From Chromera velia (lineage: Eukaryota > Sar > Chromeraceae): 25,546 bases of DNA. Positions within the stretch are counted from its first letter, which is position 1, and every line of letters starts with the position of its first letter. The DNA is taken from NCBI GenBank assembly GCA_018398765.1, contig JAHBMJ010001286.1:2473-28018 (forward strand), read 5' to 3'. Of the stretch, positions 3,904 through 25,054 are shown one piece after another. The translations under genes were made by a program, and so were the position numbers. Under the pieces are notes generated by a model, which saw only the letters and a list, made by a program, of their open reading frames with translations, made no database searches and was not told the DNA's origin.

Positions 3904-5238
3904 TCAAATTTCTTCAGCACGCGGATCCCTTTTTTTGTGGTCCGCAAACAAAAAGATTTTTTGGGGTGGTGTGGGAGGAGGGTCCCAAAGAGACTGGCGG
4001 AACAAAACTTCTGTGACCGGCCGACGGCGGCAGAAGGGAGTCATCCAAGATGGGAGAGAAGAAGGAGACTGAGAAGCCGACACTGCCCCCTCCCCACATG
4101 CTTCTAACGTCTCTTCCCACGTTCGTTTCCCCCCTCCCCCTCCCCTCCGCTTCTCCTCCAGTCTGCCCGCAAAATCTTTCGATTCCTCCAACAGACCGAC
4201 CGCCTCCCCACACACAGACTTTCCTCCTCCTCCACCCTTTCCCTTCTGTCTCCCCTGCTCATGCGATGACTGTCCACACAAAACGAAACGAACGGCAGCG
4301 GTCCAAAGCATCTGTCCTGAGAGCACCGACACGGGATGCCATCGCTTCCACCCTTCAGAAATCGGACGAATCACACGACTCGGAGACAACCCAAACCCCA
4401 CCGCCCCCTCTCGAAACAAATTCTCGTGCACTTCTGCAAACCCCTGTCTGGTCACTGCAACAGACGCCAAGTCGAGTGCTGCCCTGACAAACGGATGGAA
4501 AGCAGAGGTGCCCAACAAACGGTCGTCCAGGAGATTCCCGGACTGCAGCAAATTTGCGCCCGCACTCAACGACACGGACGACGAACTGCAACTCTCACCC
4601 CCAAAGATTTCGGCAAACTGCTGTCCGACAAATGTCGGAGCGTACAGGCTCGATGCATCTCTAAAGGAGGGGCCCTTTTTAGAGCTCAGAGCAATCACGG
4701 CTCTCTGCCCCTCCAGCCAGGGAGCCAAAGGTGCGGGAGTCATTCGAGGAGACACTACAACCCCCCCCCGTTGGAAAAGCACCCCGTATCTCCACAAATC
4801 TGTTTTCATGCGCTCGCTTGTCAAAACGCTGAACGCCCTCCAATAGAGGTCCAGCTCCGTCTCCTCAAAGGACTCCCTCATGAACGCCTCTCTCTCCTCA
4901 AAACCCACCACCCGGATTTGCCACCCAGGATTCACCCGTCCCCAATCCCTTTCCTCCTTCTCTCTCTGTTCCGAAGTCCAGCGGAATGGACTTGGAACAA
5001 ATAGGCGCCGAGGAATTGCGCCCTTGACCCCACTAAGACACTCGGGAGCCTCAGCGATTCGGGATACCGCCATTCGCTCCGAGAAGTCTGCAAAGAACTG
5101 CCGTGTGCTATCCGAGACGAGACGCGGGGACCGCCCCACGCCGTAGAAATAGATCTGGTAGACGACGAAAGACACCAGCAGCAAAACGGGAGGAAACGAC
5201 CACCAGAGATTCTCTTGCACAATGCGGAGAAGTCTCAT
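3904..5238 (-). CDS. GT32/OCH1-like type II membrane glycosyltransferase lacking the DXD motif
   Basis: This single-exon gene encodes 444 residues. The start is the ATG at 5238-5236; the frame stays open upstream to 5412 but without another ATG. A short cytoplasmic tail is followed by a signal-anchor helix at residues ~12-35 (WWSFPPVLLLVSFVVYQIYF), as in Golgi transferases. The lumenal part follows the GT32 sugar-binding-region pattern: IPRRLF at 75-80 (family IPKxIH), W...NPGWQIRVV at ~98-111, then KTDLWRYGVLFQRGG at 145-159 (family aDlfRYxxLyxxGG). Where the family has the metal/sugar-binding DXD right after the GG, this protein has VVVSPR (SPR at 163-165). It may therefore be inactive or use another mechanism. 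The C-terminal ~120 residues are Gly/Lys/Glu low-complexity. It is divergent to the giant gene. The fold call is fairly sure; activity and substrate are unknown. Confidence 0.72.
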   Translation of the reverse strand: MRLLRIVQENLWWSFPPVLLLVSFVVYQIYFYGVGRSPRLVSDSTRQFFADFSERMAVSRIAEAPECLSGVKGAIPRRLFVPSPFRWTSEQREKEERDWGRVNPGWQIRVVGFEEREAFMRESFEETELDLYWRAFSVLTSERMKTDLWRYGVLFQRGGVVVSPRMTPAPLAPWLEGQRAVIALSSKKGPSFRDASSLYAPTFVGQQFAEIFGGESCSSSSVSLSAGANLLQSGNLLDDRLLGTSAFHPFVRAALDLASVAVTRQGFAEVHENLFREGAVGFGLSPSRVIRPISEGWKRWHPVSVLSGQMLWTAAVRFVLCGQSSHEQGRQKGKGGGGGKSVCGEAVGLLEESKDFAGRLEEKRRGGGGGKRTWEETLEACGEGAVSASQSPSSLPSWMTPFCRRRPVTEVLFRQSLWDPPPTPPQKIFLFADHKKRDPRAEEI

Positions 5239-6210
5239 CTCATCTGCATCACTCCACTTGCAGGCCTCCGCGTGGTCGGTGCGGATGAAGAGCTGGAGAG
5301 GGCAAGCCGTCTCGATGGGCAACGGACGGGAGTGGAAACAGTGGGTATCAAAAGAGCCAACAGCATCACCGGTATTTTTCGCTCTGCGGTTTGGAAGGCA
5401 GGCCTCTAGCACCCGGTACTACCGCAACTCTGACTGTATATTGTTGCGCTCTTATGCTGGCATTGAATCCGAAAATGAGATCAACTCAGCATGACTCAGC
5501 AACATCAAGGTTGCCCGCCCTGCATGCAGGGTTGCTGAGAGCTAGAGCTGGGAGATGCAGATGGTTGACAAAATTAATTGATTGTGCCGCGTGCGCGGCC
5601 GCAGTCTGCGCGCGTGGCGCGCGCACGAGTGAACAACACTTGCATGTTGCATGTTGCAAAACGCTTCAATTGAGGATTTGTACGTGCATGTTGCATGCAA
5701 CAGTGATCGACCTCTGTATTTGTATATATAAGTGACTATAATTTTGAATTCGAGTACATATATATTACATATATGAATGTACGTATGCATGCATGCATAT
5801 ATGTACGTATACACGCGGCACATGCATGCATGGATATAATCAATTCAAAGATTCGCCGATTAATTGCATAATGGGAGCGAGCCATGCTGTAAGGCGAAAT
5901 GTCTCAATCGGATGATCTTCTACACAGCACAAAAGACTGTCAAGGTCGTTGCACAAAACCTAACTGGCAATGCGCATATCATCCCGCAGGTCCCTCTCCC
6001 ACTCAGAGCGTCTCTTCACACAAGGTTTCCATTTGGATCTGCTGCCGCAAAAGGATCCAGACCCTCTATATGTATTCTTTGGCGCTGCGCGAAACTTAAG
6101 ACATTCAAATTTGGTCTTTGTACGGTGACCTAATTTCACCGACAACCGCTGACATTCCATCAACATACAGAGTCTTCCGTTGTCTGTCCACACGCTCCTT
6201 TTCTGCTGAT
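5239..6210. promoter_or_regulatory. Divergent intergenic region between the glycosyltransferase (-) and the giant secretory-protein gene (+)
   Basis: This 972-bp region should hold both promoters and 5' UTRs. It contains a CG-rich block (5586-5628, gcgcgcgtggcgcgcgc), repeated TGTTGCA/TGCATGC words (5641-5702), a TATA-like tatatataag at 5723-5732 and alternating gcatgcatgcat words at 5786-5832. The TGCATGC word resembles known AP2-factor sites of apicomplexans, but any role here is inference. No gene is supported inside it. Confidence 0.5.
5583..5702. promoter_or_regulatory. CG-rich palindromic tract plus TGTTGCA motif cluster
   Basis: The tract from 5586 has nested palindromes (tgcgcggccgca, gcgcgcgtggcgcgcgc). 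It is followed by three TGTTGCA/TGCATGTTGC copies at about 5641-5660 and 5685-5702. The divergent promoter at 23239-23882 carries the same two ingredients (TGTTGCA copies at 23394-23434, CG tract at 23505-23530) in the reverse order, which argues for a shared regulatory architecture. Confidence 0.45.
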
Positions 6211-6288
6211 ATGGGTTGTTGTTGGGTTTTTCGTCTCCTTTGGGTCACTTGTTTTTTCCTTCTCGCGAGGGACGGCCTCGCCTTGAAG
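6211..6288 (+). other. Exon 1 of the giant gene: signal peptide on its own exon
   Basis: The 26 residues are a short polar start, a hydrophobic core (VFRLLWVTCFFLLA) and a plausible cleavage region ending DGLALK. The exon ends gaag|gtggta in phase 0. The 113-nt T-rich intron ends gaatgcag at 6401. No other in-frame ATG lies in the ~90 nt upstream. Confidence 0.7.
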
Positions 6289-9200
6289 GTGGTACGTCAG
6301 AGTCCAGTTGAACGATTGATGCTCTGGAGTGTTTTTTTCTTTTTTTCATTCTTCGACGAATTTTGTTCCTTTTTTTTCTTTGGTCTTACTGTCGAATGCA
6401 GGTCCGAAGCAGCTCCGCTAAAGGCGTTTCGTGCAGTGGCGGCAAATCTGGGTGTTCGGCAGTGGAAGGGGAAGGGGGGGGGGGAGGGAGAGAGAACAAT
6501 GGAAGTGGTCTCGCATTTCTCCAGGAAGAGGAGAAGGAGCAGAGGAGGAGACAGCGGAGACAGAAGGAGCGCGCAATGGCTGCGAAGAATTTGGATGAGA
6601 GTGCTGTGCAATACATGAATGCGATTCGAGCATTGGCCCTACAGATTGAAGAGGATGCGCGTGCCATTAGCAGGCTAAAAGCTCCTCCTTCGAGCGGAAC
6701 TCCCGTCCGCTTTTCAGAGCGTGCAAAGACACTGGAGTCAAAGGTGGTAGCAGCAGAAAAGCTTCACCAGAGACTTGACAAGCTTGCACGCACAGTCGGG
6801 CCGCTACAGCTGAACGATGACCTCACTGAAGGAGTCCAGGACCTCTCCCAGGAAGACGAAAAGAGACTTGAGGAAACTCAACAAACCCACGAGGCCATCA
6901 GACGAGCTCGTGATATGGTCTTTTCAGTCGTCACACCCGAAGCAAAGTCTCGAATTGAGGTGGAGACGGAGGTGAAGTTGCGTGCTCGTGACCAATCAAC
7001 AGAAGCCCTTCTGGAGGACGTCCACGACCTGAGTGAGGAATCTCTAGATGCGATGGAACTCGCAGAAGGATTAGATGAAGAGCTGCTCAGAGCAGAAGAA
7101 AACCGTCGTCAACAGTTGAGGACAAAAAAGGAACAAGAGGGGAGAGAAAGGGAAAGGCAGAGACAGAGAAACAAAGAAAGAGCACCCGATGACTTGGATA
7201 TCAGCGATGACGACTCTTCTCTGAGTCCCTCAGAAGAGGAAAAAAAGAGGCTGCCCGTCGAAGTAACAGACGAAGTATGGGGATGGCTGGATCCCGAGAT
7301 CAGATGGGTGCGCATGTTTTTTGTATTTAGTTCTGACTTCTTGTCATGTCTTTGCTTCTGTTTTTCTCTCCCCCCCTCCTCTGTGTGTGCGTATGTGTGT
7401 GCGTGAGTGCCTCTCTCTCATTCTCTCTCCGCTTCTGTTTTTATGTACGTGCGAACGTTCGCGCGGGCGCGCGCGAGGAAAAGATCGGCTCTGAAAGAAG
7501 TACATGTCCTTCGTTGTGTCCCGAGTGATTGTCCGATCACGCACCGACACTTGGATGCCTTCTTGGATGTCTGGCGGTTGTTGATGTGCTTTTTGATTGC
7601 ATGTGCGTGTTCTCTGTTCATGCCTGCCTGCCTGTCTGTGTGTCTGCCTGCAAGTAAACCTACAGGTGTCGGAGGAGGACGAAGGTTCTGATGACGAGGG
7701 TGAAGAGTATGCCATGAGGGAGAGAGGACTGAAGAGGGAAATGCAAGGGGCGTATGCAGCGAAGAGAAAGAAGGAAGCCAAGCTTTGGGACTCTGATTAT
7801 TCAGACGACGATGAGGAAATCTCCGAGGGTTGGGAGAGCGGAGAAGGTCCTGACGATTTTGAGCCCGACATCATCCTAAGGACTCCCGACTCCTCCAGTT
7901 CCACAGAGGCAGAGACGGAGAGAAGTTTCGGCAACTCGACAGAGACAGAGACAGAAAGACACTCAGAGAATCCTGGTTCAGTTCGGATAGATGAGGAAGA
8001 GCCTAGATACAGGGGACGACGAGGACGGAATGTCAATCGATGAAGCCCTGACTGATGTATATGAGGAAGGAGGGGACGCTCTGGAACAAACAGACATCAG
8101 TCAGTCAGTCGGTTTTTCAAAGAGGACAATAGTGGGCAACCCCGTGCAGTCTCCTCACACAAGGAGCCTATTTTGTCCTTTGTTTGTCCTTGCTCTTCCT
8201 GTTTTGTTTCGAATCCTTCTCCTCTCATATTTGAAACGTTCTTGTCCCTCCCTTTGTGCGTCAAGTTGCCGATCACCTCCCCGATTTAAATTCCCGCTTG
8301 CCTGCAGCATGTGCCTTGGACGGATCCCTCGAGAGCGTCGGCGTGTTTACTCTCCCTGGGGAAGTTGAATTTTCAAGCAGAAGGCAGGGTCCAGGAGCCA
8401 GAATGAAGGCGGATGTGGTGGACGATTTTGCTCGGGCAGAGGCGTGTGCCTCGAACCCCGAGGTCCAATGCCAAGACTGTGACCAGGTGGGTGCACATGT
8501 GCTGTTACAGAAAATAAAATTAAGGGGGCATGGAAGTTTGGAAGAAGGGAGAGTGAAGAGAGGCCGCATGCATATACGCTTTTTCTTTCCATGTAGCATG
8601 CAAGAGTCAACAAATCAATGAGTGTGGAGAAGTGGGATACACCTATTCGAGAACTCTTGCACAATTCACCCCCCTTGTTTGATGCTTGTAATCGAGTATC
8701 TGTTTGACATTCTGTTCAGGCCTATGCGGAGTCTGCGAGTAACGGAGTGCCAGAGAAAGAGAGGGATCAACTCTGGCGTCGGTGTGTGGGGTTGAAGCTC
8801 GTGGCTGCTCACCGTGAGCGGCAGAACAAGAAAGTGTCGGAGAAGGCAGAGAAGATTCTGGAGCACCTCAAAGAGGGGGACTATGAGAGGTGGCGAGCAT
8901 CGTGGGGAGAGAAGGTTGACAATGCCATCAATGCCCGGGTGGGTTTTTGAAAAGAATTAAAACATTCATGCAATAGAATCATAAATTCCTTTTTGTGCAC
9001 TTGTTGTATACGGGTGTCCGCGGGAGAACAGGTTGATGGACAGAGAAAGAAAGGAAGAAAGAAAGGAAGAAAGAAAGAAAGAAAGACATCGTGCAATGAG
9101 AGAGTCCATACCCCTTTGGATGAACGTTGGAGTCGGGTGGGTTGCTTCGGAATGTGCCGATAAGTGAAGTCAATCGTCCCTCCCGGATTGGAATTTCGCC

Positions 9201-12200
9201 CAAGAAAGGATAAGGAAGATCAGAATACTCCATTTGATTTTGCAAACCCAGGACTGTTCAATGCGGTTTCATATATCATTTGTTTTTTCTCTTCTTCAGG
9301 GAAAGTTGATGAACTATCTGTTCATTCGGGATCTCACCAACGACCCAGAGTGGCCCCTGAACATGTGGTCGGCCAATTTCTACGAGACGCAGGCGAATAG
9401 ACTGCCTGCTCTCCTGCTGAGCCACGTGGATGCCTTCAAGGAACAATTAGCGGCGTTCGAGTTGGTGGGAGAGTTCAGGGATGCCGTGCCTCTTCGAGAC
9501 GTCATTGTGGGCACAGAGGGAATCCAAAAAGTGGCAGACTCGATTCTACAGGCAGCATCGGCAGCCAAGGGGGACGCAGAAGGTCTGCCTACCTGAGTCT
9601 CTTCACTCTGAACATAAAAGTATGTGCGTGTCTCATTTGCTCATAGGCACATGCGCACGTAGGTCTGCCTCTCTTTGTCTCTCTCGCGTACACGTAAAGA
9701 CGTTTCACTCAAAGAAATACTTTCTGTTTCCACTATGCTCCCACATGACAGAAACGTGCTCCGATAAGACGTCTTGCCAAGTTGCTCGATTTGACCTCTG
9801 TGCTACAACATGACGTCTTTCCGCTCAACTTCAAGCCATTGTTCCCTGCATCGCTCTACGCATTCCTGTGGAATCGTTGGCATTGAATACGTCCATCCAT
9901 TCGACTCTCAGACCGATTGATGCTCTCTGTGTGTGGGTGCAGGTGTTGTCGGCAATGTCCGCAAACTGTTCTCTGGAGGGAACGCCGGAATGGACACTGC
10001 CGTGGATGCCGTCAGACCTGTCAGTTTAAGTGGAAGACGATCGAGGGGGCGCTTCTGTCAAGCCGACCCCCAGCATCAGAACAGCTCCATTCGCACGGAT
10101 TCTTTATTGTTGCTCCCTGTATGCGTCGATTCACTGTCCTGAATTGATGAAGGGACTTCGACCAGAGCGACAGATGAACGCGAAATGTTCCGATGTTCTA
10201 TCCGTAAATCGTTCAAACCAGGTATGAATGAAGGCACGCGTGTGTTTTGATTTGATTATTTCCTCGCATGCAGTCTCCTGGAGGCAGCGCAACTCTAGTA
10301 GCAGACTCTGAGAAGGCCGTCCAGGAAGCCCAGAGCATCGGGGCGAGGCTCGAGGAGGTGGCTGAGCAGATCCGGGCAGGGGCGGCAGAATGCCAGGGGG
10401 GGGGAGTGTGTGAAACAGCCTCACTCCATGAACTGGCCGTGGAGCTGACGGAGCTGGAAGAGAGGTCGAGGGAAGTGAGGTCCCTCTTGGGGTCTCAAAC
10501 CACGGAGGTGGGTTGCATGGTTTGTCTGTCCGTTTCTGTCAGCATGCATGTGCACACTTGGGGACAGTCAGTCAGTCAAGAACTTGACAAGCAGACGTTG
10601 TGCAAGAGAGACGAGGTGTGAATGGAAAGAGGAAGGAATCTGGGTTAGCTTTTTTGTAACTACATCTCCTCGCGACCCTCCTGGCAGACTTCTCTACATA
10701 TGCGTAGAGACTTGCATATCCAACGCTCAGTTTTTGTGTGTGTCTTTCTCTCCTGTGTTCTCCTCTGCAGCTCAGCAACGTGCGCATCAAATACTATGAA
10801 GACGTTGCAAAGCCCATCTTAGAGCATCCCATTGTAGGGGATGCAGGAAAGGTGGTGTTAGAAGGTCTGGAGGTTCTGAAGGAGAACGTCATCACCCCGG
10901 AAGTCCGGACGGTCCTCAGCACGCTGTCGAATCACGTTCTCTCAGCAGTACCCGAAATCGTGCAGGGAGTGAAAGTTGCAGCGGAGGCGGTGTGGGTCGT
11001 GTTGCAGCCGATTTTGGTGGACACTTTATTGATTGCACTGGAAGTAGCGTTTGATTTGATCACCCAATGGGGTTGGGTTATCTCGGCCGTGCGGATGTTG
11101 TATAAATTCTACAAGTGGGCCACCACGTATGCGCCCGAGCCCTCTCGTCTGTGTGTCCCCGACCACCAGTTGAAGTGTTGCTTCGATACGGTGATGGAGT
11201 GGGCAAAGGTGGCAAAGAAGACCAAGGGAGAGTCAGAATTTTTGAGGGAGACGGGGAAGAGGTTTGAAAAGTCTCTGCAACAAACCTGGAGGGACTGGGT
11301 GGCAGGGACACGACCAACTGCGTTCATCCAGACGGAGTCTCAGTGCAATGCGTGGACGACATCGATGTGAGTGAGCTGCATGGGGTCGATCAATAGTCAG
11401 GAATGGAGGGGTCGTAGGGGAGTTGGAGTTTGATTGTGATGATGGAAGTGAGAATAGGGCTTGCTCGATTCAAAGCCTTATGGGGATGGGAAGGAGAGGG
11501 GAGGAATGGCAAAATTTGATATCTAGGAGTTTGCTCTGCAGTTTCGCACATGAAATCAATTCTGTTCTCGGACTTTCTGCTTCCTTTTCCTTATGCAGGT
11601 ACTATGACAGTCCTGGGAAGATCTTGGAGGTAAGTGAAATCTTTGTCTCGTGTCATTGTTTGTCATTCATTTTGAAAGGGAGGGGCGGGGCGGTCGTGTT
11701 GTCTCCCCCCTCTCACTGCGTTTTCTCTGTTTGCCTTTCTGGTCATTTGTGTTTGGTCCTTGGCATCTCACTATCTCAGTGTCTTTCTTGACTCGCCTTC
11801 CACAGTGACACGAATGACAGAAGTTGCTCGCAAATTCCACAGACACCAGAAGTATTCGCACCTCGAGACCTCATTGTCTCGCAATTTGAGAGACTGGCAG
11901 TAGGATCATACTGATTCTCCTCATCGGAATGCAGGCCGACGGGGACGAGTTGGGAGACAAAGCGCTGGACGGTGTGAAATCTGCTGATGCCATCATGCTG
12001 GAGCAATTGAAGCTGATGGGTGAAAGGCCTCTGAAGAAGAGGCAGAGGACAGACCTGCAAAGTCTGGCTTCGGGGCAGAGCGCAAAGGGAATGTGGCTGG
12101 TGCACGAGAAGTCAGCGACCCCTGTGACATTCTTCAGGTGGACCCCCGATGGCGCCCTCCACTTTTCGGTCAGTCAGTCAGGCAGTGAGTCATGCGACAC

Positions 12201-12374
12201 GTACCAAGAGACGCAACCCGGTCTCCGCAATTGAAGAGGACCAATAACGCGGATCACGATGTAAAAGTGATGAGATACATCGTGATGACTGTACTACTTC
12301 AGGGTGTAGAGGGAATAGGTTTTTCTGCAAGAGCGAACGTTGCACATACATGGATTTCTGCATTGGTTCGTTGG

Positions 12375-12407
<33 letters not shown>

Positions 12408-15400
12408 GATGATGATGATGATAATGATGAAAAGTATGCCCATGTCGTTGTCTGTGCAGGAGAAATCGTTTTTGACTGGCCTGAAGTCTCACGTGACTGC
12501 CAAGATGCAATGCCGATCCTTTCTGTCGAAGCCGAGAGATAAAGACACGAGGTCAACGCTTCAGCAGAGAGGACAGGTCAGTGACGGGCTGAATGGAATG
12601 TGTGAGTGAGAGAATGAAAGATTGCTTGGTAGAAGAACGAGGGAGGCTAGAACGGTTGGAAGGAAGGGCTGACTCACATCTAAGGCGGCCGGGAGAGGAA
12701 TCAAATCTTACAGTGAACGTGTTTGGGCGTATGCATCAATGAATGTGTCCGTTTACAATGACTGCACGACGGCTTTCTGCCTCTTCATCTCTTCTACGAA
12801 AACAAAAGCGGAAGTCCACATGCGTGTACGGCAAAAACAGGTGTCCAGCCCAGTAGCCATGCGGGTGCTCTCAAGGAAGCCCTGTCTATTCGAGGATTGT
12901 GTTCTCTTTTCTTTTGTTTTCTTTCCTTTTCTTTTCAAGCAATCTGTACTGATCTCCGCAACCACTTGCCACATGAATCCATGGCTGCCTCACGCTCACT
13001 TTCTTCATTGTGCCCCGAGGCGCTTTCCGATTCTCTTGACTGCAGGTGATTCAGACTCTCATCAAGACAGTAGGGTCCGACACGGGAGCTCCGAGTTCTT
13101 TCAGGATGCAGATGAAGATTCCAGTCAGCGTTCTTCGAAAGGGCACCCTCGGTATTCCCTTCTACCTCAAATTGAAGCCTGTGCCTGTCCCCCAACGAGC
13201 AGACTTCCCCTGTGGAAACGGGATCTCAACGTTGGGAGCCAACCCGAACAACGGGTCCGTCGTCCACTCGGACGACCCCGCAGAGGCCCCCTGCAAGGAC
13301 TTTTGGGCAACTCCGGAGGACGCACCGGATGTGCAACCTGAGAGTGCGCACTTGTGCAAACTCGCTAACGAGCTTTGCAAGTCAGTCGACTACACATGCA
13401 GAGAATTTATTTATTCTCCCATTTGTTTTTCAACCCAATCGTCTTTTCCTTCGCTTCTTCTGGCTGTCTGCCTCATTCGGCTTTCTTTTCTTTCGGCCTC
13501 AGATCTTCGTGCCTTCTCGCGTGTAAAAAGTCAATTAAGCAAAACAAACACCTAGAAATACGTTGGGTCCGAGCATTCCCTCGCAATTCATGATTCATGA
13601 AAACACTTTTGACAGAGTCTCATTTCAGGCATTTCATCCTTCCTACCTGTTTCGTCCCAGGTCTGCCTGTGCCCTCCTGCCGTCTGAAGAGGCCGCCTGC
13701 GACTCCATGTACGGCGGGAAGAAGATTTTTGACATCCGCGCTGCCATCGAGTACCTTGGAAGAGACGGGGCCGCAAAGAAGGGGAAGAAGAAGGAGGTGT
13801 TCCTTGAAGACTTCTGTGGGGTAAAGGCGAAAGACGCAGGGGAGGTCTTGAAGGAGAAGGAGACAAAGATCAGACGCGCCAACGCTCTGACAGTAGATGC
13901 TGAAACCGAGGGGTCCAGAGGAAGTAAACGAAAAATGATCAAGAAACGAACCCACCGAAGGCATTCGTCTGCCGCCTCCTCTCCTCCTGGGGCCTTCCTT
14001 GAAGAAGAAGAGGAGGAAGGGCAGATGACTGCACGACAAACAACTGCCACCGAGTCGCCGAGAAGGGCTTTTTTCCATTTGTTTGTTTCAAAGCCTCCAA
14101 ACAAGGTGATTCAGCCAGTGGCAAACAAATTTTGTTATGAGCAGATGCTTCCTCGTTGGCGTTGCGGATGGGAGGAGTGCCAGATCTGCCGGTAGGTGGG
14201 TGGGATGGGTTGGAAGGGTGGGAGACACCCGTCAAGGCAGAATGAGGGAAATGGAATGGTGGCCTTCCAAACACCTTTTCTGGAAAGCGGGCTTCCTTCT
14301 TGTTTTTTCAGAGAAGACCTTTTTGAATGAAAAATGGATTGGTCAGCTTTCAGCTATTTTGTCGATCGTTCCGGACGCGTGTTTGAGTGAACCGAGTTTT
14401 CTTTCTTTTCTGTGGTGACTGCATGCAGGCAAGTCGCCTCCTTCTTCTCAAGCAACGAGGGTTCTGCGGGGTGGGCCGCCTGCCGGGCCTTTCAGCGAAT
14501 CGCGGAGACCAGAGGAGAGGGGAGGTCACTGGTTCCCTGGGATTCCTCGAGGGTCCGGGGGGTCTCGAGGGCTTCAAAGTGCAAAGCGATACACACGCAT
14601 CTCAGCGCAAGGAACGCGAACCGCGTGGTCAGTCACATTCATCGAGCGGGCAAAGGCTATCAATCAATAGGGAGCGCCAAAACAAAGCTCTAAATCAATT
14701 GTGCGGTTTGGAGCTCATGATATGATGCATGTCGGTTGTGCTTTTGCCCTCTGACTCTGCACGAGTTTTTCTCGAAAGCAAATGGACGTGTGCAATGGAG
14801 CTGCAAAACTCTCTCCGGACTGCTCTGTCATTGTGGTTGTGATTGCAGCTTAAGGGCAGGCAGATTTCTCTTCAGCAAGCGTGCGAAGAGAACGGCTTCT
14901 GTGACGACAGCATAGAGGCAAGGCAGGGCAGCCAGGCAGAGGTCTCACTCGATCTGACTGGTCCCATTGAGTGGACGCTCCTTCCCTCAGGGTTCAGGGA
15001 GGGGAACATGGAGGGCATGGGGGGGAAGAAGTTGAGGAAAATGGAGGCAAGCGGACGGACTCTGCGGGAGGGGGGCAAGAAGAAGGTGGAGGTGGAGACG
15101 ATGTGCAGGTGGGTCTCTCAAGAGACTGTGTTTTCTCCCTTCTCTTCCTTCGTCGTCCTGCATATCTTTTCCACTGTGTGGCTTCATGCTTTCCTGAGGA
15201 GGGAGTCAAAGCCTTTTCTGCCTGATCTGCATTGAGTCCTCCTTTTTCGTTTTTTTTTTCTGAGGGATGGCTTCTTCCCTCATGATTAGAACGTGTGAAT
15301 TGTTAAGGTATTAATACATTATGGTCATTCAGATAGAAGATGGGAGGTCCGTTTTTGCGTCCAAAAATTGCGTCTCTCTGATGTCTGGTACTGCAGAATG

Positions 15401-17564
15401 TGTACGGAATATGCTTTCCGGGCTTGGGTAGTTCCTGTGATCTCAGAGAGAAGATCGAATCCCAAACGTCTGTGTGAGAGGATTCCCTTCTTTTTTGAAG
15501 AAGAGAAAGAAAGATGTTTTGAGGGACTGAAGTTCTTTCAGACTCTCTTTGGTGATGAAGCAAAGACAGACAAGGAAGAATCGAAAGACGCAATGCACGT
15601 CGTCGCAGTGTGCCGAAAAATCTGTTCCAATGTCCACAAACGAAACGGAGGAATGATCACCCCCGACGTCCTCCTCCCATTCCAAAAAGATCTCAAAGCC
15701 CTCCCCACCCTCGGGCCTGCCTTCTCAAAGTCAAGTCTTCATCTAGAGTTGGGTCCCGATTTGGAAGGAGAGGACGTGGATGAGGGAGAGAACAAACCTC
15801 CCCCAGGGTTCAATGAGACATGGTACCTTGAGGACGCCCAAGTGCATCAGCCGGGGTGGCTGAAGGTCTCGGTTAGGGCTAGGCTCCTTCAGGTTGGTGT
15901 GTCTTTCTGTAGAAAAGGACGGATGGTTGATTTGATATTTACTTGGATGATGCCCCAAGACGTCTCTCGTTTCCTGCATGAAGCCGCTTTTTGCTGTCCG
16001 GGACACGCATGCTCCCCTTGCTTTTGAAAGAAATTGATTTTTCCATCGGGTAGTGCGCAAGGACTAGTCAAGCGACGGAACGGCTTCCGTCTTCTCCTCA
16101 CAATTTTTGGATGCAGATCTTTTTGCCTAGTATGCCTTTTGGTCCGCTCGCCCTCTGTGTCTCTCTCTCTTTTTGAGCAGATTGCCGAAGCACTCGAGAG
16201 GACCTCACGGAAAATGAGGGCACGCCTGGAAGTCATGCACTGGGACGCGCACTACTCCGTCAGACACGTGTACCCCCAGTCTGGGCAGTCGGGTATCGTG
16301 ACCAGAATGACAGAGGAGGGCCTGATGTTCGCCTTGCAGAAGTTTCACCTGGTCTCTAGGTGGGTCGGTATGAGAGAAAAGACATGCAGACACAGAGATG
16401 CATTTCATGCTTTTCACATTCTCCATTCTCTTCGGGTCCCTTTCCCTCGGGCAGCCTCTGAAGAGTCAGCAGAAACGCGGGGTCTGGTGCAGAAAACGAA
16501 GGGAGGGAGGGAAGGAGGAACAGTAAGAGGAGCAGAAGCTCCAAATTTCTGTCTGGATTTTGTGCTTCTGGAAGGTCCACTTTTGCTGCTTCAGAGACTG
16601 GAAAGCTCGACAGATGGGTCGATTCAGTCAGAACGTTGGATTATTTTTTGTCATCTGTGTGCCATTTCCTTTCTGCCTGTGCAGGCACATCAAGGCCGGT
16701 TATGAGTTCTACGTTGCCGGGATGCCCCTCGTGCGTCCTTGTGAGTCTATGAATCGCATCGACGGTGTGATTTTGTTTTTTGAGGGCCTGAAGAGACCCC
16801 TCGAGGAAGTGAAGGACAGCCTGAAGGGGTTGGGGTCTGACATGGACGAGGTTCGTCTGTCTGTGTATTCAATGGGCCAGAGGGATCTTTTGAGGTCTTT
16901 CTTCTTCTTCTTCTTCTTCTTCTTCTTCTTCTTGACTTTGTGGTAATTCGAAGTCATTTGAGACACATAGAGACAAAAAACAAACAAAAAGGAAAAGCAA
17001 GACAATCGGATGGGGGGTGCTCTGGAGAGCGCGTCATGGGTCGACCTTGAGAGAGGCCCACAACCGGAGGAGAAACTTTTGAGAAGGAAGACGAGGGAGA
17101 ACAAAAGTACGTTTGTCGTGCAAGATGTGTTTACATGCACAAATCCACGTGTCCCTCAACGAAAACATGCTCAATTCTTTCTTTCTTTATGCAGGTCCCC
17201 CCTCCCGCTCTGCCAAAATCCTTCCGAGAGAGACGCGTGTGGAGGGCCCGCTCTGACGAGGCAGACAGAGTCCTTCAGTGCAGTAGACAGTCGTTGAGGA
17301 TCCACCAGCTCAGACAGGCTGTCTTCAAACAACTCCAGGCGGACATGAGGAAACTCCACGAGGGACTCAGGGACAGACACGTACGTGAGCTCAAATGAAA
17401 CGAGGGAACCAGCATGGTGGTATTAATGCTAAGAGTGAGATTGCACGAAACCAAACACCAGAGTTTTGGAGTGTCATGTACTGTTCTGTTCTCACGGCCG
17501 CGACAGCTGACCGTCAAAGGGAAAATGCTATAGTAAATGAACGAAGTCAGAAGTTCTTCATTAT

Positions 17565-17614
<50 letters not shown>

Positions 17615-19556
17615 AAGAATCTTCTTGACTACTCATTGAAGGACCTGAAGATGCAGGAGCTGTACGCAAAGTTGGGAAACCTAGTGCCTCCCGATTTTGT
17701 CTCTAGGTGGCAGAGGGCAGGGCACAAACTCCATGACGCTTTTTCGTTCCAAGAGGGGGAGAGAAATTGGCAGAAGGCAAGGTACTGGAAGGTTAGTCCG
17801 CCTCACTCTTGGTGAATGCACTTGAGAATCATCCTTTGTTTGTCTCTTTCTTTGCTGGTATGCTGGCTCTTTGGCTGCCTCCGAATATGTGTGCGTTTAT
17901 TGAAAGTATGAGGTTTTCACACATTTTGCCTGTATACTGCGGTGCAACAGTACAAGTGTGTGCACGTGTTTTTGATTGTTTTTGCATGCATGCGCTCCAT
18001 GCAACAGATATTCGAGCAGATCGAGTCTCAGTGTAGCCTGAGGGATATGAGCTCGTTCAAACACGGGGACATGTCGAGAGCCTTCACGAAGTGCTGCTTC
18101 TCCTCCCAGGAGATGTTCGTGGCAGGAAACCATCAAGTGTCAGTCAGTCAGTGAGTCAGCTAGTCGATCACTTAGTCAGTTGATTGTTGGCATTTTTGAT
18201 TTTGGACAAAGTTGAAACAAGTGGGAAGATGAGACTTTGAAATGCAGAAAGACAGTCTCACACATCCATCCTTTACATACGCAAAGAAAACAGCAAGCAG
18301 GCGGCCCATGATACCGTGTAAATATTGTCGAGTCAGTCAGGAAGTCACGCATCATCACAAATCTCTTAACAGGGACGAGTCATTTTTACACAGCCGATCC
18401 CCCTCATACAGCAGCGGGAAGCACCGCCAGGGCAGCGGCAGTTGCCCATGCCCCCTTGTCGTCGATCAGAAATTTGCGCTTTTCTTTAGTTTTTTTGAGG
18501 GTATTTATGATCCGATGTCTCAACCTGACTTCTTGAAGAATACTCAGAGAAAGAGTCTCAATTTTATTGCGGATGAGTCGAGGCCTGTGTCAATGAAGCG
18601 GTCATTTGTCTGTTCTTTCGCTCTTGTGCAGAGCCGTTATTTTCATGCGACTTGGTACGGTCATGAGGGTACTGGGTGCTCTCAAAGAGCGCGGCTTGTG
18701 GTCTCTCCTGAAGCGTCTGGTTGTCAAGAAGAGCCCCAGCAAGGGCGAGCACGTGTGGGCAGTCAAGCTTCTCTCGGTATTGGTGGCTGCGTTTCAGAGG
18801 ATGATCGACTTCAATGAGAGAGAGTTCAAGGTTGGTTTTTTCTTACCGGGGTTTGGTGTGCCGACACAACCGGGGTTTTCTTACCGGGGTTTCTTACCGG
18901 GGTTTGGTTTTTTCTTACCAGATCTCTCTGTGCGTAGGCCGACACAAACACAAACACACGTACGCGATTCAAGCTGGTTGTGTTTGCATGAAGAAAAGTG
19001 TTTCATTCAATGCTCTGCGAGCTTGGAAGAAAAACGGTACCCTGACACATCTACATAATCAGTCAGAGTGTCATCAGTCATCCCTGCATTCACCGTGCAC
19101 CCATTCACGCAGACCAATCGATCGAATGGATCAGGTTGCGGAGCTTCATTTCCCTTTTTTGTGAAGTGCCCGTGCTTCAAATTTGGACAGCGGTATCGGA
19201 TCCTTCTCTCTCTCTCTCCCGCTCAGGCATGGTTGCAATTTTGGTTTCTCTCTTCTGGTATGTGCTGCGCACAGATGCACGAGGGCGCGTTCAGGTCGAT
19301 GCAAGACATCGCCACGGAACTTCGCGAGCACCGAAGGCGTGGTCTGTCGCACTTCTTCGCACGTCGCTTCGAGGTGGCAAAAAGGAGGGGCAAGAAAACT
19401 GTGAATGCAGTTGCAAAGCGCCTCTCGAAGGTTGGGGGGGCGCTGGATAAGCTGATTTCAACTTTGGAGTCCGAGGCTTCACCTGAAGACAGGAAACGTC
19501 TAGCCCTCAATCGAGAAGGACACGACATGTGCGATAAAAACACACAAACCCGTTGA
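6211..19556 (+). CDS. Giant secretory protein of unknown function, ~25 exons, ~2,163 aa
   Basis: I threaded 25 exons with matching phases: 6211-6288, 6402-7307, 7666-7975, 8013-8099, 8308-8486, 8720-8938, 9300-9582, 9943-10019, 10274-10507, 10771-11366, 11599-11629, 11935-12168, 12460-12576, 13046-13380, 13661-14191, 14429-14627, 14849-15108, 15397-15892, 16181-16359, 16685-16850, 17195-17380, 17615-17791, 18008-18138, 18632-18830, 19275-19556 (TGA). The summed length is a multiple of three. The start ATG at 6211 opens a signal peptide (MGCCWVFRLLWVTCFFLLA). Then come an acidic coiled-coil N-terminus (to ~460), mixed helical segments, a hydrophobic stretch (~865-906), a Cys-bearing region (~1118-1724) and a helical, basic C-terminus. 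No known domain is recognised. The role is unknown; secretory-pathway entry is inferred from the signal peptide. Weakest points are the 7976-8012 junction and the last acceptor. Introns are otherwise 113-493 bp. Confidence 0.75.
6402..8099 (+). other. Exons 2-4 of the giant gene: acidic, coiled-coil, Ser/Asp/Glu-rich N-terminal region
   Basis: Exon 2 (6402-7307) starts with a Gly-rich segment over a long G run (6472-6484), then a Glu/Arg helix and heptad-like stretches to WGWLDPEIRW at the donor (gatgg|gtgcgc). Exon 3 (7666-7975) is dominated by Asp/Glu/Ser (SDYSDDDEEI and similar). Exon 4 (8013-8099) continues the acidic character (GDDEDGMSIDEALTDVYEEG) but in a different frame, joined through a 37-nt GT..AG interval or an uncertain junction. 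Its donor is the first GTCAGT of a gtca repeat at 8100. The composition suggests an extended acidic domain, perhaps for calcium or partner binding; this is speculation. Confidence 0.55.
9042..9086 (+). repeat. (GAAA/GGAA)n purine microsatellite in an intron
   Basis: A run of gaaagaaaggaa units lies in the 8939-9299 intron of the giant gene. It explains the Phe/Leu-rich shadow frames on the opposite strand. No function is apparent. Confidence 0.8.
10771..11366 (+). other. Exon 10 of the giant gene: hydrophobic helical core
   Basis: This largest mid-gene exon encodes ~199 residues (about 792-990). A series of Val/Leu/Ala helices leads to a hydrophobic stretch at 10990-11115 (VWVVLQPILVDTLLIALEVA, then ITQWGWVISAVRML), followed by YKFYKW and a Cys pair (LKCCFD). 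The stretch is long enough for one or two membrane segments, or a buried helical bundle. It is the only strongly hydrophobic part of the protein after the signal peptide. The exon starts after ctctgcag in phase 0 and ends tcgat|gtgagt in phase 2. Confidence 0.55.
11599..11629 (+). other. Exon 11 of the giant gene: 31-nt microexon
   Basis: The 31-nt exon sits between ttatgcag and gtaagt, the latter the closest match to the canonical donor in the gene. It takes phase 2 in and gives phase 0 out, encoding (M)YYDSPGKILE. Without it the flanking exons are out of phase, which supports it being real. Confidence 0.6.
12379..12431 (+). repeat. (GT)n followed by (TGA)n microsatellite in an intron
   Basis: About 14 GT units run straight into a (tga)n tract in the 12169-12459 intron. 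The acceptor tctgtgcag follows 28 nt later. Confidence 0.85.
13046..15892 (+). other. Exons 14-18 of the giant gene: Cys-bearing central region
   Basis: The five exons cover residues ~1118-1724. Cysteines cluster in short helical patterns, e.g. HLCKLANELCK joined to SACALLPSEEAACDSMY across the 13380/13661 junction, CGWEECQICR (to 14191) and KLCERIP..RCFEGL in 15397-15892. Such spacing would suit disulfides in a secreted protein and is loosely saposin-like, but I cannot assign that family. A basic, Ser/Lys-rich insert followed by a Glu run lies in 13661-14191. Confidence 0.45.
16899..16933 (+). repeat. (TTC)n microsatellite in an intron
   Basis: Twelve or so ttc units lie in the 16851-17194 intron. 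They produce an artificial poly-Lys frame on the opposite strand. Confidence 0.85.
17571..17611 (+). repeat. (GT)20 tract abutting a 3' splice site
   Basis: The uninterrupted gt run ends directly in gcag, and the next exon starts at 17615. It occupies the place of the polypyrimidine tract in this intron. Confidence 0.85.
18836..18921 (+). repeat. Short direct repeats (tttcttaccggggttt) in the last intron
   Basis: Four to five imperfect copies of ttcttaccggggttt(gg) occur in tandem within the final intron of the giant gene. The last is shortened to tttcttaccag. It looks like a young minisatellite. Confidence 0.65.
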
Positions 19557-19813
19557 TTTTACTCAAATATATAATGGTATGATGAGTATGAATCATCTCT
19601 TGAGCCGGTTAGATTTTTAGTAAAAGACTAGTAAAAACTACTAGTAGTAGTTAAAAGATGTTAAAAGCTTATACTTTCACTTTAAAGAACTGAATTAATC
19701 TTCGAATTAATTAAATTGATCTATTATATTTTTCGATTTGCAAAGATTTACCACTTAATCTGCCGTCTAATTCATCGTTATAATCTTTATAATCATTAAC
19801 GATGCATCGCTTA

Positions 19814-20373
19814 GGCTTAGACCGTCGCTATCAGGCTATAAAAGAACGCTTAACATTCGGCTGGTGTTATAGTACCGCAGTTTGATCTTCCTATAAAGCT
19901 TAGACTATACGCTACCCTGCAAAGACTTAGTAATTTAGACGGGAATCTAAAGGGATTTAGACAGGAATTTAGAGGAATTTTGACAGGAATTTAGACAGGA
20001 ATTTAGAGGAATTTAGATGAATTTAGCTGGGAATCTAAAGGAATTTAAAGACAGGAATTTAGAGGAATTTAGTAAATTTAGGAGGCCGATTTCTCATGAA
20101 CTATGATCAGTTAGAACTTAATCGATATTAATGGTGCTTATAGATCTATATTGGAACTATAAGCACCGTTAATATCAAGCTCTAACTCATCATAGTTCAT
20201 AACTATTGACCTCCAAAGTTTAGGAATTTAGAGCTCTAAATTCCTTTAGATTCCTGCCTAAATTCCTCTAAATTCCTGTCTAAATTCCTCTAATTCCTGT
20301 CTAAATTCCTAGGCATTTGCAGAATAGACTATAGGGCAGTTGCCTTTTATGACAGGGCTAACTGGTCTTAGCC
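19814..20373. mobile_element. MITE-like foldback element with internal tandem subrepeats
   Basis: The outer ends are complementary (ggcttagacc at 19814-19823; ggtcttagcc at 20364-20373, one mismatch). Further in, ctgcaaagacttagtaattt.. (from ~19917) pairs with the complement of ..aattcctaggcatttgcag (to ~20321). The centre is a strong stem: ctatgatcagttagaac..ggtgcttatag (20101-20143) against ctataagcacc..tctaactcatcatag (20157-20195), loop of 13 nt. Between are tandem units of gacaggaatttagaggaattta on the left (19937-20080) and their complements on the right (20220-20312). No protein is encoded. It is a non-autonomous foldback or MITE-type element or a large palindrome; I see no clear target-site duplication. 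Confidence 0.6.
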
Positions 20374-21161: not shown

Positions 21162-23238
21162 TCACTTGGAAGAGAGCAGAGTTCTCCTTGCAGGCTTAGT
21201 GCAGGGGTGATCCTCCCACTCCGCAAATGCGCTCTCGCAGGCAGACTCGGAGGTGAAAGGAGACGGCCAGTCGACCTCAATGCACTCGCAGAGGGGAGCG
21301 AAGGACCCGGAGGAAGATTGGACTCCGGTCTCGAAGGAGAACATGAAGTACTTCACGGGCTCCGGGGCAGGAGGAGCCGTGGTGGTGGGAGCAGCGCCAG
21401 GGGTGGTCGTCGTGCTCGGGGGCGCGGTGGTTGTGGAAGGCGCCTCTGTAGTGGTAGTTGTAGGAGCGCTGGTGGTGGTTGTAGGTGTCGTGGTGGTTGG
21501 TGTGGTTGTGGTGGGAGGAGCGGTGGTGGTTGTGGTTGTTGTTGTTGTTGTGGGGTAAGGCGTCGTAGTGGGGGTGGTGGTCGGATAAGGCGCCGTGGGA
21601 GGGACGCACTGTGGGGGGGCGCACTGAGAGAACCACGGGTTTCCGTACACGCACTCAGAACCAGCCTCGCAGCAGGTCGGGCCATCCCATCCCATTCCTC
21701 CGCACTGTTCCCACATCATCGAGCAGGTACCGGGATAGCCTGGAGCACTGGTCGTCGTGGTGGTGGGTGCTGCGGTAGTGGTTTCAGCTTCAGTTATCGT
21801 GCTTGTGGTGGTAGTTGTGGTGGTGGGGGCAGGCGTAGTGGGGGGCACGCACTGTGAGTACCAGGGATTGCCGACTACGCACTCAGATCCGGACTCACAG
21901 CAGATGGGGCCGGTCCATCCCTGCCCCCCGCACTGGCCCCAGAGAGACGCACAGGAGCCGTCCCCTCCTCCAGCAGCCTCTGTAGTGGTGGTGGTCGGGG
22001 AGGACGGAGGAGCAGTCGGGATGATGGTGGGGACGGGGGCGCCATCTCTGGTGATGGAAATGTCAGCACAGTTCCAGAACTCCTCGGTGTACGTGTTCTT
22101 GGTCAGGCAGTCTCCAAGGTTCTGCACCCACCAGTCTTCAGCTGCAGTCAGTTCAGAATCATCAGATCATCCTATTGACGTCATCCGTGTATGCATGCAG
22201 ACAACAAGAAAGAAAGGAAGAGTGCCGCATGAGGAGCTCAGCTAAACAGATATCCGAGTCGGCGGAACCAGTGAACAGAGATGTTGATGCACAGAAAGGG
22301 TCGATTATTCGAGATGAGGCACGGAAAGGTGTTGATTGCACGCCGATGCAGGCACAGAACGAGCGAGAAAGAGTCAACAGACCTGGGCAGTCGGGAAACT
22401 CTTTGACTGTCGCGAAGTACTCCTGACGGTAGCCGATGGGGTTACACCTGTTTGCCTCCCACCAGTACCACTGCAAAACGCAGTGTTCGCACTCGATGTC
22501 GGGCAGGTAGTACTGCATCCTGGTCGTTTGGGCACTTGTGAAGTGCTCCTTGTACCCGTTCGCAACTGACTGCTCGACATGGTCACGGGCACACGGGGGC
22601 TCCAGATAATATCGCCCGGGGTAGAGGGGGTCGACTGGAGAGATCTCGCCGTCGATGGGAACTCTTCTGAGGGGGTGCTTGTTGAAGCACGCCTGCTCGA
22701 GCCTTCCTGAGGGGTCGGGAAGATCTCTCACATCACACAGGAAGAACTCATAGTGGCCTCTGTGGTGTGCAGTGATGACGACCTCAATGTCGATGATGCC
22801 TCCAGACTTGTACACAGACGCCGAAGGGACGGCATAGTTGGTAACGTCCTGGTCGAATCTGGCATCAGAACCGTCGCGAGTCTGCCCAGGGTCTCCGCAC
22901 ATCCCGTGCCTCTTTGCAATGCTGGGCGGCTCAAGCACAGTACCAATCTCCGAAACTGCGCCGCCCACAATGAGTTTGTCGATGGGGAATTCCCCTGACT
23001 CGATGCCGTACTGGGCGTTCACTGCGGGATCCTCATAGGCGATTTGACGAGCACTCACGGCGTCAGGACCTCCTGACTGCAAACAGTGGGGGCAGTACTC
23101 AGGCTGGGCCCCTTCCCAGCCTTCAAAATTGCGGGCAAAGATACTGCGAGAAGGGGGAGTTGCAACGTAGCCATGGCCGGCAACTCCTGCGAACAGTCCG
23201 GCTGAAGCAACAGCGGCGGACAACAGTCTACCTGACAT
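21162..23238 (-). CDS. Secreted AA15-like lytic polysaccharide monooxygenase with two CBM1 modules
   Basis: There are two exons: 23238-22383, and 22141-21162 ending in TGA. The intron is 241 nt (cccag|gtctgt ... gactgcag|ct), phase 1. The product is 611 aa. It is a copper enzyme that cleaves crystalline polysaccharide oxidatively outside the cell. A signal peptide (1-21, ending AGVAG) exposes His22 ([13 protein letters not shown]), the N-terminal brace histidine. The second is His159 in [19 protein letters not shown] at 114-118 and a Cys-rich close ([13 protein letters not shown], 248-260; CADI, 310-313) fit AA15 LPMOs. Then come a Thr/Pro linker, CBM1 at 349-383, a Thr linker, CBM1 at 425-459, a long Thr-rich linker and an unrecognised ~66-residue tail with four Cys. 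CBM1 points to cellulose, perhaps self-wall remodelling. It is divergent to a histidine kinase. Confidence 0.88.
21366..21605 (-). repeat. Thr/Pro-rich linker encoded by a GT-rich minisatellite
   Basis: About 80 residues, almost all Thr with Pro/Ala/Ser, lie between the second CBM1 and the C-terminal tail. On the + strand the DNA is gtggtggttgt-type repeats. It is a likely O-glycosylated spacer, and a region where length is expected to vary between strains. Confidence 0.75.
21621..21725 (-). other. Second CBM1 cellulose-binding module of the LPMO
   Basis: Residues 425-459 repeat the signature ([26 protein letters not shown]), with Phe in place of the final Tyr. It is close enough to the first copy to suggest internal duplication. 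Confidence 0.93.
21849..21953 (-). other. First CBM1 cellulose-binding module of the LPMO
   Basis: Residues 349-383 show the full fungal-type signature: [13 protein letters not shown], GPICC, then C and NPWYSQC. The flat aromatic face (W353 side, W379, Y380) and paired cysteines are present. Confidence 0.93.
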
Positions 23239-23882
23239 TCTGTGAATAGAGTGTTGCGCGGCTAGAGTCGGACGCTTGTTGTTCGAGAGAGGAGCAGGTG
23301 GGGAACTCTTAGTTTGAGAAGTGATTCAACGACTGTTTGAAACGTGCTTCCGACGACTGTAAAGCCCAGCGCTGTTTGTTTGGCTGCCTATGCACTGTTG
23401 CACGATATGTTGCACGTATGAGCATATGCAACAGCAATGCATGGAATCGTGTAGACGGCGTCGCGCATGCAGACGCTCAAAATACGTGTATCTTCAAGTG
23501 CCCCGCGCCGCCGCGCGCGTGCACGCGCGCATGCAGCCCCGGCCGCTTTCCGGGATCTTTCGATCCGCTGCGGAGCTGGGGCCGCGACCATGCCGCGACC
23601 GCGAGCTATCTGATCCAATTTAGCATTCAATCCAAGTGTGGTGAATTCTGAGATGTTCAGAGAGGACAGACTTACGATATACTTACAATGCTAGTGACCT
23701 AGAGTATGTGCTGTCATATGCACTCAGACGCCGTCTTTGCGTGCGTCGAGCTGCTTCGTATCCAGAATTTTCAGTTGACGTTATCATTGATTCAGTCTGT
23801 TTTTCGGCGTCTCGCGTAAGTCTCCGCCTATATCTCCCGGGTCACTTTGTTTGTCTCGTGCGCCTGGAAGACAAGGCAGAAG
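23239..23882. promoter_or_regulatory. Divergent promoter region between LPMO (-) and histidine kinase (+)
   Basis: This 644-bp region holds TGTTGCA/TGCAACA words at 23394-23434, a CG-rich gccgccgcgcgcgtgcacgcgcgc tract (23507-23530) and the gcatgcagccccgg word (23529-23542) shared with the palindrome region at 141-176. Its make-up parallels 5583-5702. The ATG at 23883 has a strong start context (aagATGg). Confidence 0.5.
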
Positions 23883-25054
23883 ATGGAGACAAGACGGGCA
23901 CACCCGACGCCAAGGAACGGTGAGGGGCGAGAGAGTCTTCCCTCAAGCTTCGAGGAATGGCGCATCGACGCTGTGAAACAACAGTTGGCACGCGCCAACA
24001 AGACCATTCTTTTCGGGTTCCTCTTTATCTGCGTCGCCGCCCTCCCAAAGGCTATATGGGATGCTGCCCAGCCAGAAGCCGCCCCCTTCTTTTCCTATTT
24101 GTTTGTTGCCTACATCATCATTGACTTGGTCGTCCTCGGAGTGCTTTTGTCCCCTTGGCTTCGTGCGCGTCCATATCAGATGCTGGAGAAATACCTGATC
24201 TTCGTCCTTTTCGTCTTTTTGGTTCTCAATAACGTGTGGCCGCTCGTGGCCTTCAGAGCAGTGACCTCGAGACAGGGGTACATCGCAACTCACTGCATTG
24301 ATGGTCTGGTGTTTCCCATCATTTTCTCTTTGTTCGATTTGCACCCAACAGCAAATCTTTTCCTTCTCGTCACTCACGGAACCATATGGGCTGGGGTTCA
24401 CTCCTGGCTGACCGACTTTGACGCACAGGATTTCGGTAGCACAACCTGCTACCTTCTTGTCGGCCTGATGTTCTGCGGGACAAATGCATCGGGACGGTTG
24501 GGGACGCTGAGAGACAGTTTCGACATGACCGCTTTAAAGCAGGAGGCTGAAGAGGGGTATAGGCGCTTTCTGTCAGTTTCAGCTTTGCTTCACCTGTTTG
24601 TCTCTCGCTTTCTTTATCCGCACCGCTCCAGGTCTTCACAGATAAGAAAGAGATCGAATGTCCCGATTTTTTCGTTAATGGCGTCTGTTGTTTCTTTCTA
24701 CTCTTCCTGCGACGACTCCTTCTCTTCCACTTCTTTTTTCATCGCATCAGCCCTTTCGCCTTGGTTGCCGTCAATTCTTGCATCGGTTCTCGGTAGCCGG
24801 AGAGACATGCAGATGGTGAGAGGAAAGGAAAGAACGGAAAGGAAAGAGAGACGAACAGGCGACCTTCAGAGAGACTAACAAAGGCACCCGCACACAGAGA
24901 AATACAGGGGCAGAAGGACGCGAATGCGGTAGAGAGATAATCGGACGCAACATACTGTGCCCGCCGCTCCTCCTCCTGATTTGCTTTCTTCAAGGTTGTT
25001 TCTCAGATCGTGTCGCGTTTCTGACCTCCGTCCGTCCGTCCGTCCCTCCCCGTG

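Follow-up and report, generated by a model that had tools for sequence, protein, structure and literature searches.

Among described proteins, those that invite comparison with the gene reported here are apicomplexan rhoptry proteins and the extracellular proteins of chromerid algae. According to its published description, Plasmodium falciparum RON3 (PfRON3) is a 2,215-amino acid (aa) protein with a signal peptide, three transmembrane (TM) segments, and a coiled coil, and the description of RON2 from Babesia orientalis (BoRON2; 1,345 aa, 12 cysteines) gives a putative signal peptide and three C-terminal TM segments with conserved cysteines. In the account of Woo et al. 2015 (PMC4501334), the chromerid Chromera velia has 26,112 predicted genes, and ROP9 and ASP belong to a gene module shared with Chromera. 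We analyzed a stretch of 25,546 nucleotides from the coral-associated C. velia (assembly GCA_018398765.1, positions 2,473 to 28,018 of the 28,018-base contig JAHBMJ010001286.1; hereafter the window) and describe a gene of 25 exons at positions 6211-19556 with no recognizable domain, the core of which is shared, together with most of its cysteines, by a second gene elsewhere in the same genome. Residues 481-1604, which are backed independently by homology to the second locus, almost certainly belong to a real and constrained gene, and the remainder probably does as well.

A Second Gene in the C. velia Genome

The 177.8-Mb assembly was searched exon by exon, a procedure by which diverged copies could be missed. 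With residues 776-1297 as query, a colinear set of exons was detected on contig C209 besides the window itself (best match 48% identity, expect value [E] 1.9e-16). The paralog pieces fetched make up C209:43001-53943 (loci L035-L039, L041, L044, and L045), and TBLASTN against this 11-kb database placed 11 pieces with E < 1e-3 in a single order and on a single strand, from residue 489 to 1561. The paralog was aligned as 20 exon segments (C209:43200-53874, + strand) with residues 481-1604, giving 377 identities over 1,053 aligned positions (36%). Of 30 window cysteines, 27 fall on a cysteine in the paralog, a count somewhat flattered by an aligner that favors cysteine on cysteine, and identity at the other residues is 34.2%. 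The 11 pieces with E < 1e-3 contain 22 of the 27 aligned cysteines; cysteines 743, 1080, 1468, 1474, and 1569 lie in weaker or hand-chosen paralog segments. Conservation is highest in residues 851-970 (49%), 1351-1470 (46%), and 1101-1270 (40%) and lowest in 1271-1350 (26%) and 581-850 (27%).

Identity between the copies at the three codon positions is 50%, 58%, and 36%, and at fourfold-degenerate sites of identical residues the third base is the same in 42 of 147 cases, against 26% expected by composition. These sites are thus saturated to chance level while the cysteines and core blocks persist, which marks the two genes as an ancient duplication maintained by selection at the level of the protein. 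A paralog intron lies within four residues of 6 of 13 window introns (1.6 expected under random placement; p 0.002) and within one residue of 2 of 13 (0.4 expected; p 0.06), and the intron 3' of exon 9 coincides in the alignment with one of the paralog. Most intron positions have thus shifted between the copies.

The gene, first described in an earlier note made from the letters of the window alone, is not a singleton, since the same genome carries this colinear second gene. Genome-wide, residues 1-775 and 1455-2167 matched nothing at E < 0.1 outside the window contig, the best other match of these terminal queries being C209:43194-43370 (E 0.10), colinear with the paralog. A query consisting of most of the paralog matched only C209 and the window contig. 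Candidate third members L040 (contig C1499; genome-wide E 0.16), L042, and L043 (E 2.4 and 4.2) were checked and rejected as chance, and matches on C2376 (E 1.9) and on C1855, C3606, C3982, and C3671 (E 0.28 to 6.5) were left as chance. No further family copy was found in the genome at E < 0.1, and the detected members number two.

Gene Model and Coding Evidence

The model was built by hand from a reading of all frames and comprises 25 exons and 24 introns on the + strand; it opens with an ATG at 6211, closes with a TGA at 19554-19556, and encodes 2,167 residues (Table 1). Every donor is GT, every acceptor is CAG, and the phase is kept across each of the 24 introns; G is found at donor position +5 in 23 of 24 introns, the donor of exon 3 being the sole exception. 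Introns have a mean length of 285 bases (range 88 to 481) and a GC content of 46.5%; that of exons is 54.8%, rising to 63.2% at third codon positions. An independent codon table was built solely from two neighboring open frames (glycosyltransferase-like and LPMO); by this table, the chosen frame was the best of six in 20 of the 25 exons and not the best in exons 1, 13, 14, 16, and 21. A gene finder using the table gave the real strand a higher spliced-gene score than any of 30 dinucleotide shuffles or the reverse complement, whichever of three intron costs was set; at the middle cost, the real strand scored 418 and the highest shuffle 262. An earlier dynamic-programming finder, trained on the blocks themselves, produced 37 exons and 2,214 aa with spurious or implausible micro-exons and was rejected, and codon training on 20 random genome stretches was dropped as too noisy. 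Single exon boundaries and both gene ends were made by hand, and the weights for splice sites and the values of the hydropathy and octanol scales were likewise entered by hand. The chain of about 25 exons joined by 24 phase-matched GT/AG junctions, as first noticed, was confirmed, with 2,167 aa in place of 2,163 and only the exon 3/4 junction (7925-8012) in doubt. Exon 25 may begin at 19227 or 19275, the frame being kept with both, and the hydrophobic segment at residues 2057-2075 depends on this choice of acceptor. A GAAA-type simple repeat lies within intron 6 (9039-9086); a 601-base query around it gave at least 155 genome matches, nearly all to the repeat itself.

Table 1. Exons of the modeled gene and its doubtful intron, in window coordinates
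Feature	Position	Strand	Content	Basis
Exon 1	6211..6291	+	Start codon and hydrophobic signal-peptide-like leader, aa 1-27	Residues 1-19 mean Kyte-Doolittle 1.88; donor gtacgt
Exon 2	6402..7307	+	Ser/Gly-rich stretch, then charged coiled-coil-prone head, aa 28-329	Gene model, codon and heptad scores
Exon 3	7666..7924	+	Acidic region, aa 330-415; 3' end uncertain	Sole donor without G at +5
Doubtful intron, or exonic sequence with frame break	7925..8012	+	88 bases	Shortest intron; T content 17%; weak donor; no stop in the exon 3 frame
Exon 4	8013..8099	+	Acidic region, aa 416-444	Gene model, codon score
Exon 5	8308..8486	+	Cysteine-bearing core begins; conserved C491, C499, C502	Model and paralog alignment
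Exon 6	8720..8938	+	aa 505-577; conserved C526	Model and paralog match
Exon 7	9300..9582	+	aa 578-671; conservation weak	Model and paralog alignment
Exon 8	9943..10019	+	aa 672-697	Phase-matched
Exon 9	10274..10507	+	Coiled-coil-prone, aa 698-775; C743 on Cys, C737 not	Model, heptad score, alignment
Exon 10	10771..11366	+	Conserved hydrophobic hairpin (~aa 849-889); C903, C911, C912, C967	49% paralog identity over aa 851-970
Exon 11	11599..11629	+	31-base micro-exon, aa 974-984	Gene model
Exon 12	11935..12168	+	aa 985-1062	Model and paralog match
Exon 13	12460..12576	+	aa 1063-1101; C1080 on Cys	Model and alignment
Exon 14	13046..13380	+	aa 1102-1212; C1157, C1205, C1212 conserved; C1184 not on Cys	Model and alignment
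Exon 15	13661..14191	+	aa 1213-1389; conserved C1216, C1226, C1265, C1371, C1381, C1386, C1389 flanking low-complexity linker	Model and alignment
Exon 16	14429..14627	+	aa 1390-1456; conserved C1408, C1441, block KCKAIHTH	Model and alignment
Exon 17	14849..15108	+	aa 1457-1542; C1468, C1474, C1542 on Cys	Model and alignment
Exon 18	15397..15892	+	aa 1543-1708; C1545, C1569 on Cys; C1583 opposite gap; paralog match ends	Model and alignment
Exon 19	16181..16359	+	aa 1709-1767	Gene model
Exon 20	16685..16850	+	aa 1768-1823	Gene model
Exon 21	17195..17380	+	aa 1824-1885	Gene model
Exon 22	17615..17791	+	aa 1886-1944	Gene model
Exon 23	18008..18150	+	aa 1945-1991	Gene model
Exon 24	18632..18830	+	aa 1992-2058; moderately hydrophobic segments	Model and hydropathy
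Exon 25	19227..19556	+	Hydrophobic start, basic tail, stop, aa 2059-2167	Alternative acceptor gives start 19275

Protein Character and Database Searches

The strongly hydrophobic residues 1-19 (mean Kyte-Doolittle 1.88) are followed by a charged, coiled-coil-prone head that turns strongly acidic toward residue ~444. Hydrophobic segments occur at ~831-889, where the hairpin (~849-889) is hydrophobic in both gene copies, and weaker ones at 1988-2075, which comprise three moderately hydrophobic segments, positive on the octanol scale and with Kyte-Doolittle values of at most 1.4. The protein contains 46 cysteines, 27 of them between residues 446 and 1474. Hydropathy and alignment indicate that both a hydrophobic N-terminal leader and conserved cysteines are present, as in cysteine-rich proteins of the secretory pathway; the three N-glycosylation motifs are little informative. 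Self-BLAST of the protein detected no internal repeats.

Pfam at E <= 10 returned for the whole protein only DUF4094, at 15.4 bits against a cut-off of 24.5, and nothing for the window core; the best match of the paralog was MLKL_N (E 0.013), and none was over its cut-off. NCBIfam, run on five of the 25 exons, gave nothing over cut-off and two models below it. Sequence matches in PDB to ATP synthase inhibitor IF1 (E 0.069) and to 3qua and others (E 0.65 and up) were rejected as chance. Prokaryote genomes and viral contigs scanned with residues 776-1297, which detects close relatives only, yielded no relative. The proposal of the earlier note that there is no recognizable domain therefore holds, with nothing over cut-off in Pfam or NCBIfam and no credible PDB relative, and its succession of hydrophobic leader, acidic coiled-coil head, hydrophobic middle, cysteine core, and basic tail is supported by hydropathy and a home-made heptad score. 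Among the papers listed by searches of the open literature, none was on the gene as judged by title or the start of the abstract; the gene may already bear a locus name in the public Chromera annotation.

Surroundings of the Gene

An LPMO_10 copper mono-oxygenase domain (E 5e-16) lies within window 21162-23325 (- strand), and in the next open frame on the same strand, Thr-rich linkers accompany two CBM_1 cellulose-binding stretches of fungal type (E 7e-24). The two frames are perhaps one gene with an intron between; if so, the alga would secrete a cellulose-acting enzyme that carries binding modules of fungal type. A 504-codon open frame at 3904-5418 (- strand) weakly matches a DXD glycosyltransferase family (Gly_transf_sug, below cut-off at E 0.056), and a 352-codon open frame at 23820-24878 (+ strand) has the long hydrophobic stretches of a membrane-like protein and no Pfam match at E <= 0.1. 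Beginning ~350 bases after the stop codon, a large imperfect palindrome of short A+T-rich units (19905-20334) has arms of up to 55 bases, 84% complementary, with one 32-base perfect pair; by analogy, it resembles a non-autonomous mobile element. In the genome, matches were found to IMCp (alveolin-type) repeats (11), chlorophyll a/b-binding domains (58), and AP2 domains (56), each of these families also matching in one bacterial control genome.

Favored Reading and Alternatives

The leader, the conserved cysteines spread over ~1,100 residues, and the lack of a match to any catalytic family together suggest a disulfide-bonded protein of the secretory pathway. The explanation we favor, at roughly even odds, is that the product is a signal-peptide-led, disulfide-knit, mainly helical protein that serves as a structural scaffold in a secreted coat or in a secretory organelle. 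The gene would then belong to an ancient family with two members, both coding for very large proteins of the secretory pathway of a chromerid alga. As hydropathy would have it, the leader directs the chain into the endoplasmic reticulum. The core (~490-1570), whose cysteines are conserved, would form a mainly helical body held by disulfides between them, and the hydrophobic hairpin would tether this core to a membrane or pack against one. The acidic coiled-coil head and basic tail may serve assembly into a matrix or complex, and the role would be that of a structural scaffold of a coat or organelle lumen (cell or cyst wall, extrusome, apical organelle) rather than an enzyme. The structured extracellular or organelle-lumen protein that the earlier note had envisaged is strengthened by the retention of 27 of 30 cysteines in a sister gene of 36% identity; its location and disulfides are what we infer.

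Several points weigh against this scaffold explanation or the gene model behind it, in addition to the flattered cysteine count. The gene model was read from genomic DNA alone, residues 1-480 and 1605-2167 are linked to the core by reading frame and splice phase only, and the free chain of the gene finder matched exactly 4, 6, and 9 of the 25 hand-model exons at the three costs and spanned 5777 to 19799, not 6211-19556, so that its score backs a spliced gene here but not its ends or boundaries. Several weakly conserved paralog segments (aa 581-850) were chosen by eye from open frames, and the paralog enters a simple repeat at the contig end, the recovered part being without the N- and C-termini, leader included. 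The leader, hairpin, and coiled-coil calls come from hydropathy scales and the heptad score rather than trained predictors. Asp and Glu residues within the hairpin speak against simple membrane spans; the hairpin could instead be buried in the protein or be located at a membrane. Structure prediction, which the earlier note had suggested, was run with single-sequence AlphaFold2 on exons 10 and 18 singly and hinted at helices with low confidence (mean predicted local distance difference test scores of 51 and 41); as these models are poor, the helical character is read from the sequence. Cysteine conservation alone would also be compatible with metal binding. Finally, the intron between exons 3 and 4 has the poorest donor, is the shortest, and contains 17% T, against 27-47% in the other introns. 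The frame of exon 3 crosses it without a stop and the next exon is in another frame; four other introns are likewise open in one frame, so the open frame through 7925-8012 proves little by itself. A base insertion or deletion here, by sequencing or real, is as likely as an odd small intron.

This junction is also the weakest point of the chain if two or three adjoining genes have been fused by the model, the acidic head (to ~aa 444) and the basic C-terminal part being separate transcripts. Homology support is limited to aa 481-1604, and the N- and C-terminal queries matched nothing below E 0.1 outside the window contig. We nevertheless consider such a fusion unlikely: 24 of 24 phases match, there is no in-frame stop, and the longest intron is 481 bases. 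The paralog sequence stops with its contig, and its lack of a C-terminus therefore does not count in favor of a fusion.

Slightly less likely is import into the complex plastid or its outer compartments, for which the leader and the Ser/Gly-rich, slightly basic stretch behind it would form a bipartite targeting signal. The stretch at residues 26-68 is indeed rich in Gly and Ser and has five basic and three acidic residues, and the host genome is photosynthetic (the 58 matches to chlorophyll a/b-binding domains), but the strongly charged head follows directly after this stretch and Pfam gives the window protein no match to a plastid family. To our knowledge, many conserved cysteines are unusual in a plastid protein, which also counts against import.

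Very unlikely, in our estimate, is that the two genes represent a family, not yet described, of matrix proteins of an apical or extrusive organelle in a free-living relative of apicomplexans; they would be part of the ancestral secretory apparatus behind invasion organelles, with diverged counterparts among apicomplexan rhoptry proteins. The narrower proposal, in which the window protein is itself a chromerid relative of RON2, RON3, or another rhoptry protein and is kept in an apical organelle, is slightly more improbable still. The size and parts of PfRON3, the C-terminal TM segments and cysteines of BoRON2, the hydrophobic segments of the window protein at ~1988-2075, and the ROP9 and ASP module shared with Chromera all invite it. 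However, the PfRON3 description places TM segments at 250-298 and 551-573 and a coiled coil at 1822-1847, whereas the window protein has no segment with Kyte-Doolittle >= 1.2 between residues 20 and 830 and, by the home-made score, no heptad stretch at 1822-1847, its coiled-coil-prone stretches lying elsewhere. It contains 46 cysteines against the 12 reported for BoRON2 and has no RON-relevant Pfam match at E <= 10, and the AMA1 family has no match over cut-off in the genome (two matches, best E 0.74, in an exon-by-exon search of limited sensitivity). Judged by size and architecture, kinship with RON2 or RON3 is unsupported.

Least probable of all is that the window copy is decaying, the frame change at 7925-8012 being a true frameshift in what was once a gene. 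The acidic frame of exon 3 does continue through the proposed intron to an exon in another frame, but the exons are otherwise open with matching phases, protein-level constraint between the copies is clear, and the spot is accounted for just as well by a short genuine intron or by an error in sequencing.

Together, the results define an orphan family: large, constrained, cysteine-conserved, of secretory type, and present as two ancient copies in an alga that is photosynthetic and related to malaria parasites. New relative to the earlier note are the sister gene, the evidence of selection, and the cysteine conservation. Since an alga with 26,112 predicted genes can be expected to have orphan families, the interest is moderate as long as the site of action is a proposal. 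If located in an apical or extrusive organelle, the protein would reveal organelle contents before parasitism; if located in a wall or cyst coat, it would be a structural protein of ordinary interest.

Comparison with Known Systems

The domain-built extracellular proteins of chromerids resemble the window protein in being of secreted type and from the same algal group, but those in the account of Woo et al. 2015 (PMC4501334) are recognized by known domains, whereas the window protein has none over cut-off. With PfRON3 it shares the size class, signal peptide, coiled coil, and hydrophobic segments; the order and position of the TM and coiled-coil segments in the published description of PfRON3 set the two apart. 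RON2, compared through the description of the one B. orientalis member, likewise has a signal peptide, hydrophobic segments near the C-terminus, and conserved cysteines, but the window protein is longer, has 46 cysteines, and has another cysteine layout. The gene on C209 differs from the window gene in its saturated synonymous sites and mostly shifted intron positions, and matches it in colinearity over aa 481-1604 at 36% identity, in 27 of 30 cysteines, and in the hydrophobic hairpin.

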